Positions 51,430 through 58,507 of a DNA stretch of 64,000 nt are shown piece by piece. Source of the stretch: Kushneria marisflavi (lineage in GTDB: Bacteria; Pseudomonadota; Gammaproteobacteria; Pseudomonadales; Halomonadaceae); the NCBI RefSeq assembly GCF_002157205.1, contig NZ_CP021358.1:1-64000 (forward strand), in the 5' to 3' direction. A program made the position numbers and the translations under genes. A model generated the notes under the pieces. That model was not told the DNA's origin. It was given only the letters and a program-made list of their open reading frames with translations, and did not search any database. Each line of letters begins with the position of its first letter. Position 1 is the first letter of the stretch.

Positions 51430-51535
51430 TTGGCGATCTCCTGAAAGCAATACGGCATCATTATGCGATGCGGTGAATATAAACCATTATGACAATGGCC
51501 ATATGCGGATGTACTGACTGTGCACAAGGACTTCG

Positions 51536-51551
51536 CATAATATATATTATG
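51536..51551. promoter_or_regulatory. 16-bp perfect palindrome upstream of zur (candidate operator)
   Basis: CATAATATATATTATG is a perfect palindrome 162 bp upstream of the zur start. It overlaps an imperfect dyad, TATGTTAAATTACATA (51548-51563). The AT-rich dyad character resembles Fur-superfamily operators, but neither matches the enterobacterial Zur box spacing. It may be a Zur operator, part of a promoter, or both. Confidence 0.4.
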
Positions 51552-51712
51552 TTAAATTACATATTTCGGTAATGCCCTGAGTCAGCCCTGACGATCTACC
51601 TGATGTTTCTGAAGGTCATTTTGGATCGTCAAGATGCGAGCCCTGCTCGATGACGTTACCATAGACCCATATTTCACATGCTGTCCTGCGCTTTCAATGA
51701 TGAGAACATTCA

Positions 51713-55243: not shown

Positions 55244-56416
55244 TTATAGCGTGTCATCCACGGGTTCGTCCGATGGATCAAGCGTGTGACGATTGATCTG
55301 ACCATGCCACTCCTGCGTCTCAGCGTGAAGATAGCGTGCAGTGGTCTCAAGTCTTGAATGGCGTGCCGTGCGTGATAGATAGCGCAGCTCAACGCCCTGC
55401 TGCGCCTGATGGGTAATCGCCGTATGGCGCAGCCAGTGCGGTGTGGCCTGTCGCAGGCGCTGCGCTTCGTATGACGTTGACTCGTTTTCGTACTCTCTCG
55501 TCTGCGCCAGCCTCTCAAAGGTTGCCTTGATCATGCGATAAAGCTGATTGTCACCGACTCCTCGCTGGCCATCCAGCGCACGTATGACCGGCGTTTCCTC
55601 TTCAGGCGACGGTGTGGCCGGCAGTCCAAGCATGTCGCGCCACTGCCTCAGTGCGGCCATCATGGCATCCGGTACCGGAATGCTGGCTCGCTTGCCGCCC
55701 TTCCCGGCCACCTGCCACCACCACTGACCTTCGCGCATCCGAAAGTCATTCATGCGGGCATGGCTCATTTCGCTGATACGTGGGGCCAGCAGATAGGCAA
55801 AAGCGAAAACGAAACGCTGACGCTCAAATTCATAGCGCGCCCGAACCGTGGCGTCTGTAGGCAGCGTATTGAGCTGCTGCCAGCACCATCGCCATAGCGG
55901 GCGCTCAATATAGCGCTCAACAGCATTTGATGTGTTATCGAGTCGGCGACGCTTGTCGCGCATCAGTCTGAAGGGATTCTGACTCAGCCAACCGGCCTCG
56001 ATCAGCCAGCCAAACAGGGTCTGCAGAATGACCAGAGCCTGGCGCCTGCTGGCAGCAGAAAGCCCCTTTCGAAAGGGGCGCCACGCCTTACTATGCCTGG
56101 GGCTGGGCGGCCCAATCCATTCAGCAGCCGGTCTGGGATCGGCAAGAAATTCCTCGAACGTGTCCAGTGCACGCCGATCAAGGTGTGCAAGTCGCTTGCC
56201 CTTGTCTTCCAGCCACAACAGCAGCCGCTCGGCTTCCTTGCGGTACTGCCTGAAGGTCTGTGGGCTGGTGCGATATTCCATGAGCCAGGCCGCCACAATT
56301 TCCCGATCGCTTCCTGCTTCGACCAATTGACCGGACATGGCAGGCGCTGCCCTCTCGATCAGGGCCGCCTCCTGCATCGAATCGCTTGCAGGCTCTACGC
56401 CCAATGGCTTTTTCAT
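55244..56416 (-). CDS. Tyrosine site-specific recombinase (TnpS-like)
   Basis: A 390-residue integrase/recombinase. The N-terminal SAM-like core-binding domain (about 35-145) and catalytic domain (about 165-370) are both present and the active site is complete: Arg213 (APRISEM), Lys239 (AGKGGK), His327 and Arg330 (TPHWLRHT), His353 (RHSRLETTA) and the nucleophile Tyr362. It is divergent from a KfrA-like coiled-coil gene across 237 bp holding a 34-bp core-site-like inverted repeat. That arrangement resembles tnpS/tnpT of Tn4651-type elements. No transposase, phage gene or tRNA is adjacent, and flanking genes are core. Function here is inferred: dimer/cointegrate resolution or site-specific inversion. 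Confidence 0.9.
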   Translation of the reverse strand: MKKPLGVEPASDSMQEAALIERAAPAMSGQLVEAGSDREIVAAWLMEYRTSPQTFRQYRKEAERLLLWLEDKGKRLAHLDRRALDTFEEFLADPRPAAEWIGPPSPRHSKAWRPFRKGLSAASRRQALVILQTLFGWLIEAGWLSQNPFRLMRDKRRRLDNTSNAVERYIERPLWRWCWQQLNTLPTDATVRARYEFERQRFVFAFAYLLAPRISEMSHARMNDFRMREGQWWWQVAGKGGKRASIPVPDAMMAALRQWRDMLGLPATPSPEEETPVIRALDGQRGVGDNQLYRMIKATFERLAQTREYENESTSYEAQRLRQATPHWLRHTAITHQAQQGVELRYLSRTARHSRLETTARYLHAETQEWHGQINRHTLDPSDEPVDDTL

Positions 56417-56475
56417 CGCATCTTCGCCCTGCTTTCATCGATATCCTAGGGTGCCATTGTAGCGACTACAGTCAA

Positions 56476-56509
56476 TAAAATCATGATAAGACGCGTAATC
56501 ATGATTTTA
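56476..56509. other. 34-bp 12-10-12 inverted repeat, putative recombination core site
   Basis: TAAAATCATGAT (56476-56487) and ATCATGATTTTA (56498-56509) are perfect inverted arms around the asymmetric 10-bp spacer AAGACGCGTA. Size and form are like a tyrosine-recombinase core (compare loxP or dif, 28-34 bp). It lies 60 bp upstream of the recombinase start, inside the divergent intergenic gap. Alternatively it is an operator for the divergent promoters. Confidence 0.6.
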
Positions 56510-56530
56510 CGGCTTGTTTCATAAATAAAT

Positions 56531-56553
56531 TTACGTAATACGTAAATACGTAA
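56531..56553. repeat. Three TACGTAA repeats, candidate binding sites for the KfrA-like protein
   Basis: TACGTAA occurs at 56532, 56539 and 56547, with phases of 7 and 8 bp; the first two form a near-palindrome (56531-56545). The tract is AT-rich and lies 22 bp to the right of the 34-bp inverted repeat. It may be an accessory-protein site or part of the promoter. Confidence 0.5.
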
Positions 56554-56653
56554 TAGTGTTTTTGTCACAATAAGGCGCTATAGTGGTGAAAAAACGCAGC
56601 CCTTCTCCAACAACATCAATCATTGGGCGTTACAGGGAACTCAGGAGGCCGTC

Positions 56654-57619
56654 ATGGCACGAAGTGGCGTGCAATTCGAAGATGTACAGAGGGCGATAGA
56701 AACCCTCATCCAACGCGGTGATGTCCCAAGCGTTCAGCGCATACGCGAAGTTCTGGGCACCGGCAGTTTTACTACCATCAGTGACCACCTGCGGGAGTGG
56801 CGGGCCAGACGCGAGGAAAATCGTGATGTCCCCCTGCCGCAGGCCATCCCTGAACGCCTGCACGATGCGCTGGCCGGGCTGTGGCAGCAGGCGCAGGAGG
56901 AAGCCGGCGAAGCTCTGTCCTTCTATCGCCAGCAATCCGATGAGCAGGTAGAGCAGGCGCAAGAGGAAACACGGCAGGCCCAGCGACGTGTTGAAGATAC
57001 CGAGCAGCGTCTGGCTGCCTTGAGTGAGCGCCTGGACAGCACGGCGGCGCGACTGGAAGAAAAGGCGACCAGTCTTGCCAGGCTTGAAAGCGAAGCGGCG
57101 CATCTGCGTGGCCAGCTTGAAGAGCGCGATCAGCGTCTGGCCATGCGTGATCGTCAGATCAATACGCTCAGCGAGGAGCGTGACCGCCTTGAGCGTGAAC
57201 ATCATGAAAATCTCGAGCAGCTCGATCAGACATACAAGCGACGACTGTCACAGGAAGAGTCACGTCATGAAAGCGCTGAAAATCGCCTGATGCAGCTGCT
57301 GGATAGCGCCCGTCATGAAAAGCAGGAGCTTGAAAAACAGGCACGTCGCCGACATGAGCAGCTCGAGGAGCGGATCGAAAAGATTACGGCTCAGATGGAG
57401 CAGCAGCGCCGCACGCTACAGGAAGAAGAGCGCAAGATGCGCGATTTGAGCCAGCACGCCCGCCACAATGAGCAACAGCTTCAGGAAAGTCGGGGGCGAG
57501 AAGACCATCTTTCAGGTCTGCTGGCAGAGCGTGACCAAGAGCTGGCGCGCTTGCGCACGGAACTTAGAGTGCTGCAGGAGCGTCTTTCCAAGGCACCCAT
57601 ACCGCCTTTCGTGTATTAA
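56654..57619 (+). CDS. KfrA-like DNA-binding coiled-coil protein (TnpT-like)
   Basis: A 321-residue protein. The first 50 residues match the KfrA N-terminal DNA-binding domain (GVQFEDVQRAIETLIQRGDVPSVQRIREVLGTGSFTTISDHLREW). From about 80 to 312 it is one long coiled coil rich in Glu, Arg, Gln and Leu. KfrA proteins are plasmid-borne repressors or nucleoid-like factors; TnpT of Tn4651, the auxiliary for TnpS recombination, has the same build. An AGGAGG box precedes the ATG by 6 bp. It is divergent from the tyrosine recombinase and followed by a strong terminator, so the two form a self-contained module. Confidence 0.85.
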   Translation: MARSGVQFEDVQRAIETLIQRGDVPSVQRIREVLGTGSFTTISDHLREWRARREENRDVPLPQAIPERLHDALAGLWQQAQEEAGEALSFYRQQSDEQVEQAQEETRQAQRRVEDTEQRLAALSERLDSTAARLEEKATSLARLESEAAHLRGQLEERDQRLAMRDRQINTLSEERDRLEREHHENLEQLDQTYKRRLSQEESRHESAENRLMQLLDSARHEKQELEKQARRRHEQLEERIEKITAQMEQQRRTLQEEERKMRDLSQHARHNEQQLQESRGREDHLSGLLAERDQELARLRTELRVLQERLSKAPIPPFVY

Positions 57620-57643: not shown

Positions 57644-57672
57644 AAAAAACCCCGGCAAGCCGGGGTTTTTTT
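57644..57672. terminator. Bidirectional terminator between the KfrA-like gene and nfuA
   Basis: Six As and CCCCGGC pair with GCCGGGG and six or more Ts (57644-57671), with a 2-base loop. Both convergent genes can use it. Confidence 0.9.
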
Positions 57673-57713: not shown

Positions 57714-58301
57714 TCAATAGTAGGCGTTGGTCGTATCGGTGTGGTCTGTCACATCACGGATCGCTGTCAGCTCGGGGATGCGCTCGGTCAAAGTCTTCTC
57801 GACACCCTGCTTGAGCGTGATATCCACTGCAGCGCAGCCCTGGCAGCCACCACCAAACTGGAGTACGGCGACATTGTCTTCGGTCAGCTGAATCAGGCGA
57901 ATCTCGCCACCGTGAGCAGCCAGCCCCGGGTTGATCTCGCTATAAAGAATATAGTTGACGCGGTCTTCCAGTGGGCTGTCCTCGCTGACCTGCGGCATCT
58001 TGGCATTGGGGGCCTTGATGGTCAGCTGACCGCCCATGCGGTCGGCATTGAAATCAACCACGGCATCTTCCAGAAAGGCCACGCTGTGCTTTTCGAGAAA
58101 GAGGTCAAATTTTTCAAGCGGGATGCGCTCATCGCTTTCTTCTTCCTCGCCGGGCCTGCAATAGGCCAGACAGGTTTCCGCATAGGGCGTACCCGGCTGA
58201 GTGATAAAGACACGCACGCCGATGCCCTCGACGTCCTGACGCGAAAGCAGGTCGGCGAGATACTCCTGGGCGCTTTCGGTAATTTCGATGGTCTGACTCA
58301 T
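57714..58301 (-). CDS. nfuA: Fe-S biogenesis protein NfuA
   Basis: A carrier that delivers [4Fe-4S] clusters to client enzymes, especially under stress. The 195-residue protein has an N-terminal degenerate A-type domain ([26 protein letters not shown]) and the C-terminal Nfu domain with the cluster-binding Cys153 and Cys156 in [17 protein letters not shown] 58301 begins the conserved [10 protein letters not shown] with a GAGG box upstream; the open frame extends 40 codons further without homology. It is divergent from metH. Confidence 0.95.
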
Positions 58302-58507
58302 TGACGGCCTCGTACGCAATCGCGGTAAAGAAATCTGTCGATATTTTATGCCAGCCAGCCGCTCGCGACAAATCCGAGTGCAATACTCGGGTAAATAAAC
58401 CCGGCCTTCAAAGGCCTGCATCGCTTGATCCGGGGATATGCATGACCTTGGCTCACGCGCGTCGTGAATGTCTTTCAGGCAGTAAGTCTGTCTGGCTGTC
58501 AGGGGTT

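Follow-up and report, generated by a model that had tools for sequence, protein, structure and literature searches.

What does a tyrosine recombinase do in the chromosome of Kushneria marisflavi, where it lies between two core genes, divergent from a KfrA-like gene and separated from it by a palindrome? The window, by which we mean the whole stretch of DNA analyzed (64,000 nucleotides, positions 1 to 64,000 of contig NZ_CP021358.1), contains the following features at and around this locus.

51534..51555, plus strand: dif site (XerCD), CGCATAATATATATTATGTTAA; pattern match with 1 mismatch, the only match in the genome
54791..55207, minus strand: sufE, flanking gene (PF02657)
55244..56416, minus strand: REC, tyrosine recombinase of 390 aa (PF00589, E 2.4e-15; catalytic residues)
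56476..56509, no strand: perfect 12-10-12 inverted repeat, putative core recombination site (TAAAATCATGAT/N10/ATCATGATTTTA)
56481..56504, no strand: conserved core 24-mer inside the inverted repeat (family comparison)
56530..56555, no strand: TTACGTAA-type repeats, likely KfrA sites (motif; kept before KfrA after REC loss)
56654..57619, plus strand: KfrA_N plus coiled-coil protein of 321 aa, TnpT homologue (PF11740, E 5.6e-26)
57644..57671, no strand: hairpin and T run 3' of KfrA, terminator-like (perfect 13-nt repeat)
57714..58319, minus strand: nfuA, flanking gene (PF01106 and PF01521)

The first-pass annotation had described a complete tyrosine recombinase divergent from a protein with a KfrA-N domain and a coiled coil, and its account of the parts holds. 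The six catalytic residues that it named (R213, K239, H327, R330, H353, Y362) are invariant in 20 of 20 aligned family members; Pfam domains and opposite strands bear out the divergent layout, with the KfrA_N domain scoring 91.9 bits against a curated cut-off of 26.1; the 237-bp gap (56417-56653) does hold the perfect 12-10-12 inverted repeat; both flanks are core genes by Pfam; and, judged from gene order in the window and the opened loci, no transposase or terminal repeat is apparent. Searches for a closer identity were less informative. PADLOC, PHROGs and NCBIfam returned generic integrase matches only for REC and generic coiled-coil matches for its partner, while the PDB searched by sequence gave weak Xer matches for the former and nothing useful for the latter. 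With the predicted REC model (mean pLDDT 76.3, with residues 347-363, which include the catalytic tyrosine, below 50), the best Foldseek folds included XerH, Cre and XerD, at low TM-scores of 0.29-0.51.

Comparison of the sufE-nfuA locus across Halomonadaceae showed that the pair is widely kept. REC matches occur in 128 of 151 genomes, or 126 once G024 (a weak match of 52 residues) and G091 (fragments only) are discounted, and KfrA-like proteins in 148 of 151, including 22 of the 25 genomes that lack REC. At 13 REC-bearing loci sufE neighbors the REC side, up to 2.9 kb off, and nfuA lies beyond KfrA wherever the stretch is long enough; in genus g21 (G021, G040) sufE adjoins nfuA with neither REC nor KfrA between them. 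REC is missing from genera g4, g17 and g24 and from single species, and the 25 REC-less genomes amount to only about six losses (g4, g17, g24, g21, G038 and G091) plus the incomplete genome G076. The gene evolves under purifying selection (dN/dS of 0.105-0.118 in comparisons with three relatives, L003, L004 and L005) and REC distances track NfuA distances (Mantel r 0.81, p 1e-4, 14 genomes). Taken together, the low dN/dS, the congruence of REC with NfuA and the conserved neighbors argue for vertical inheritance and against a passing element.

The inverted repeat has the anatomy of a recombination site. A rough calculation gives a probability of about 1e-4 to 1e-3 that two perfect 12-bp arms with a spacer of at most 16 nt turn up by chance in 237 bp, and a related site recurs family-wide, with the consensus TCAWGATAA-N5-GTAATCWTGA and nearly fixed arms. 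In an alignment of 42 of 52 loci (nine same-genome repeats and one locus with too little flank were left out), mean pairwise identity was 0.83-0.89 in the core halves and 0.28-0.41 in the 60 nt of upstream flank; it fell to as low as 0.33 at positions in the core center, where the central 7-mer takes 18 forms, and reached 0.69 at 48-59 nt downstream of the core, which is where the TTACGTAA array sits. In genus g5 (L074 and five more genomes) both arms depart from the consensus together and the symmetry is largely kept. A variable center between fixed symmetric arms is as would be expected of a tyrosine-recombinase crossover site.

The module also lies close to the terminus machinery, a point absent from the first-pass annotation: dif is 3.7 kb from REC in the window. 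Using a dif pattern and allowing up to 2 mismatches, we found dif in 138 of 151 Halomonadaceae genomes and no match in the single-contig genome G068 and 12 others. The distance from REC to dif is 3.7-33 kb in 27 genomes (26 single-contig genomes and G018). The orientation of dif relative to REC is opposite in at least eight of the genomes (G016, G018, G037, G074, G084, G103, G114 and G138), and in those eight the module is still no more than 17 kb from dif; in the REC-less genomes G003, G017, G038 and G101, KfrA is 2-8 kb from dif. Nearness to dif need not itself be selected, however, since the gene block around dif is conserved. GC skew in the window is near zero at 52-58 kb, with no clean sign change. 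The K. marisflavi genome encodes XerD (349 bits, over the cut-off) and has an XerC-like gene that scores 316.6 bits, below the strict cut-off of 335, so that the REC module is not the only dimer-resolution candidate of this chromosome.

On balance we lean toward the view that REC, together with the KfrA-like protein, makes up a vertically inherited chromosomal site-specific resolution system that stands beside XerCD/dif and is also used by plasmids. What we observe, and build on, is the conservation of the module, the anatomy of its site, the co-occurrence of REC and core, the nearness to dif and the cores on plasmids; binding by REC and KfrA, catalysis, the role of KfrA and dimer resolution we infer from sequence. 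A plausible scenario is that REC binds both core arms and exchanges strands across the short variable center, and that KfrA binds the neighboring TTACGTAA repeats and, like TnpT at rst, both represses and gives architectural help. Since there is mostly one core per chromosome, near dif, the natural partner of a core is the copy on the sister chromosome, and recombination between the two would convert dimeric chromosomes to monomers alongside XerCD/dif, while small plasmids with the same core would borrow the host enzyme to resolve their multimers. Because XerD, an XerC-like gene and dif are all present, this would be a second resolver with no obvious need for it. A fuller form of this idea, which we put forward tentatively and would not bet on, is that Halomonadaceae have two chromosome dimer-resolution systems working in parallel at the terminus: in addition to XerCD/dif, a single recombinase assisted by KfrA would act on a dif-like core of its own a few kilobases off, and small plasmids would exploit this second system, in some hosts with a core whose crossover center is that of the chromosome. 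Two different resolution systems near the terminus would be unexpected, and would raise the question of what XerCD/dif cannot do. Such a recombination system would also be compact, with two proteins and one site, and of halophile origin; it might explain how small Halomonas plasmids remain monomeric and would give KfrA a possible chromosomal role.

The evidence from plasmids bears both on this proposal and on its strongest competitor. Seven small contigs (5 to 37 kb) from six genomes carry a core that is exact or has one mismatch. Exact cores are also present on four named plasmids, one of them identical with one of the seven contigs; a plasmid search with the 36-nt core gave 16 records, of which the 4 exact ones are all from Halomonadaceae and the other 12 have E values of at least 1. 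In cer/psi-type systems the site is on a small plasmid and the recombinase gene lies elsewhere in the cell. Similarly, pHAL40, with 8 annotated genes, and pZB5060, with 7, carry the core and no annotated recombinase, although here the enzyme would be REC and no TTACGTAA array is seen by eye at the plasmid cores printed. That absence makes a helper role for KfrA at plasmid cores doubtful. The Zymobacter plasmid pZB5060 is contained letter for letter in genome G018, and its core has the same 24 bases as the G018 chromosomal core. A 7.6-kb contig of V. maris (L132), which closes into a circle through a 121-base overlap, likewise has its host's 24 bases, including the unusual center TAAGG; there is no recombinase among the 6 of its 10 listed reading frames that were compared with Pfam. 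For the seven small contigs whose core has no more than one mismatch and whose host's core is known (the two-mismatch contigs L138-L141 were left out), the centers of host and plasmid agree in three cases (V. maris C47, K. pakistanensis C7 and Zymobacter pZB5060) and differ in four (K. phyllosphaerae, C. sarecensis, O. taeanensis and K. pakistanensis C6), and this agreement is suggestive only. Some core-bearing replicons have an enzyme of their own: L134 and L136 encode a tyrosine recombinase by Pfam, and two THAF12 plasmids do so by annotation. As separate observations, the small plasmid-like Halomonadaceae contigs L136, L138 and L139 encode a short Phage_integrase-family recombinase of about 200-230 aa, and a 7,661-bp contig of Kushneria phyllosphaerae (L133) contains two head-to-tail copies of one 3.75-kb unit, both with a core; this may be either a true plasmid dimer or an assembly artefact.

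It could be argued from these cores that the module mainly serves plasmids, being a plasmid-derived multimer resolver that was kept, with a regulatory or ancestral chromosomal core and with chromosome dimers left to XerCD/dif. The small plasmids that carry a core and no annotated recombinase fit this reading, as do a related REC-KfrA pair on a Rhodanobacter plasmid, a Halioglobus plasmid on which a REC relative adjoins a KfrA-like reading frame, and the intact dif and XerD. We nevertheless consider it rather unlikely, given that REC persists near dif and under purifying selection in 126 of 151 genomes, and that core-bearing plasmids occur, among the matches listed, in only a few genomes.

Wider scans place the core largely within the family. 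A scan of genome contigs gave at least 120 matches; of those listed, 106 are from Halomonadaceae by title, 100 of them with REC and/or KfrA in the locus by tblastn, and 14 are from elsewhere, with neither gene by tblastn, although one of the latter (L234) has full arms and may be a real core. A viral scan gave 6 matches; on visual inspection, three resemble genuine cores and the other three may have arisen by chance. In Cobetia amphilecti a second exact core lies 400 kb from the module, apparently in coding sequence, and is taken as chance; further one-mismatch matches are G042:C8 and G094:C352, and no element between two cores was noticed among the matches listed.

A different possibility is that the core is an operator for REC or KfrA, through which the divergent genes are regulated, with no chromosomal recombination; in a related vein, the first-pass annotation had suggested that the system might serve to control its own promoters. 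The position of the core between divergent promoters, with other conserved repeats adjacent, is in keeping with this. However, the core is kept before KfrA only in genomes that have REC. With up to 2 mismatches the core pattern occurs in 126 of 151 genomes (2 for the reversed control), which are not the same 126 as those with REC: G056 and G078 (g5) have no core-pattern match because their arms differ, four other g5 genomes have one elsewhere, and in G115 and G024 the matches lie away from KfrA, core positions being known for the matches listed rather than for every genome. All 25 REC-less genomes lack a core before KfrA (the region was opened in 16; 6, all g4, have no genome-wide match and 3 have no KfrA match), while TTACGTAA-type repeats stand before KfrA in 15 of 15 REC-less regions with motifs listed. 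Two genera have REC at a distance from KfrA, about 9 kb in g16 and about 19 kb in g18. Their cores remain before KfrA, matching the consensus at 26/36 and 30/36 positions, and none is present before the moved REC, where the best identities (15/36 and 16/36) are background. The REC-less genomes and the moved-REC loci together indicate that the core goes with REC in the genome and not with the REC promoter. Control of the pair's own promoters as the main function of the repeat therefore fits poorly, as the core is gone with REC where the KfrA repeats stay, is not beside the moved REC and is found on plasmids with neither gene. The drifting center between fixed arms is a further point against an operator, and we regard one as quite improbable.

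A decaying transposon or island remnant that happened to land near dif would fit the layout, which the pair shares with Tn4651, and the loss in some lineages, but family-wide conservation, conserved neighbors, purifying selection and congruent distances lead us to reject a mobile remnant as very improbable; the core-gene neighbors in the opened loci also place the pair, judged from gene order, outside any Tn3-family transposon. Least credible of all is a DNA-inversion switch acting on the pair's own promoters, for although inverted arms and a recombinase are present, the opened loci have a single chromosomal site, and relative to KfrA one core orientation fits better in 51 of 52 loci (one tie), with no inversion seen across the 52. 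Of the earlier suggestion of a domesticated resolution or inversion system, then, the resident, vertically kept, resolution-type module stands and the inversion does not.

Several known systems share features with the module. In what PMC7157771 sets out of the TnpS/TnpT/rst system of Tn4651 and TnXax1, a tyrosine recombinase and a helper are divergently encoded with the site between them. The likeness to tnpS-tnpT proposed in the first-pass annotation extends to the layout, with REC divergent from a TnpT-homologous helper (blastp against pWW0 TnpT, 30% over 208 aa, E 9e-13) and the site between the genes. It does not extend to kinship of REC with TnpS: the best blastp E value is 0.073, the tree keeps the two well separated, with TnpS on a long branch, and orthology was rejected. 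The gap holds both a core and helper-type repeats, to which REC and KfrA would bind, in a sequence unlike that of the pWW0 gap; the Halomonadaceae core was not seen in the printed pWW0 gap. Our module also differs in being chromosomal, near dif and with cores on plasmids as well. It may act like TnpS/TnpT with a recombinase that falls outside the TnpS group. With XerCD/dif, XerS, XerH and XerL it shares a tyrosine recombinase and a short palindromic site near the terminus, and XerS and XerH sites are located near their genes, as stated in the relevant part of PMC9765430. In contrast to XerCD/dif and the single-recombinase Xer systems, however, the REC module coexists with XerD and dif, which rules it out as the main Xer system; it also has KfrA as a partner, with repeats of its own, and core arms unlike dif. 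No description of this module was found among open-licence papers at the level of titles and abstract openings.

The KfrA-like partner appears to have a life of its own. KfrA proteins of the plasmids RK2, R751 and RA3 combine a KfrA_N domain with a long coiled coil and have repeats before their own gene; the present protein differs in being chromosomal, paired with a recombinase and near dif. It is kept without REC, with TTACGTAA-type repeats upstream, in g4, g17, g24 and G038 (L066, L067, L076, L081 and L303-L313), and this persistence points to a possible REC-independent role. A role of KfrA in organizing the terminus through many sites was considered and rejected, as far as one motif (TTACGTAATACGTAA) shows: with up to 1 mismatch it has matches in 11 of 29 genomes (the reversed control also in 6), those of 10 family genomes all at the module and two in G156 elsewhere.

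Relatives of the module exist outside Halomonadaceae. Related RECs with a divergent KfrA_N protein are present in families f38, f40, f6 and f20, with the partner in L082 just under the cut-off, and on the Rhodanobacter plasmid. In the tree REC groups with these (support for the whole group 78/63) and apart from XerC, XerD and TnpS, with the caution that long branches meet. The gaps in f38, f40 and f6 and on the Halioglobus plasmid hold related palindromes, for example TTCATGATAATAGGGTTAATCATGAA; none was found in the gaps of L086 and L153. Distant REC relatives are also found in 1939 plasmid records, many in Klebsiella and Burkholderia, with KfrA pairing examined in three.

In two f38 genomes (G484 and G468), which have a different gene neighborhood, the REC-KfrA pair lies about 4 kb or less from a second recombinase, REC2, and its palindrome. 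REC2, a tyrosine recombinase of about 415 aa, is often near mid-chromosome (L082, L083 and L087-L100; f38, f27, f44, f6, f14, f29 and f24). The XerD model scores only 40-139 bits in the genomes tested of f38 (8/8), f27 (3/3), f44 (3/3) and f6 (3/3), in which dif had no match, as against 349-386 bits in Halomonadaceae, f14, f29 and f24. The palindrome TTCCGATAAT-N4-ATTATCGGAA is exact in 8 of 8 f38 genomes and present with 1 mismatch in 3 of 3 from f27 and with 2 in 3 of 3 from f44; it has no match in 3 Halomonadaceae, and the reversed control matched in 3 of 23 genomes. In f27 and G435 it lies 54-210 kb from REC2. Judged on XerD and dif rather than XerC, REC2, mostly with this palindrome, is a candidate replacement of XerCD/dif in four families, perhaps XerL-like, and if so would add a further dimer-resolution system. 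Relatives bear the names Thalassolituus, Bacterioplanes and Oceanobacter, and REC2 genes end about 20-40 bp from a classical dif in L094 (9434-9455) and L095 (8651-8672).
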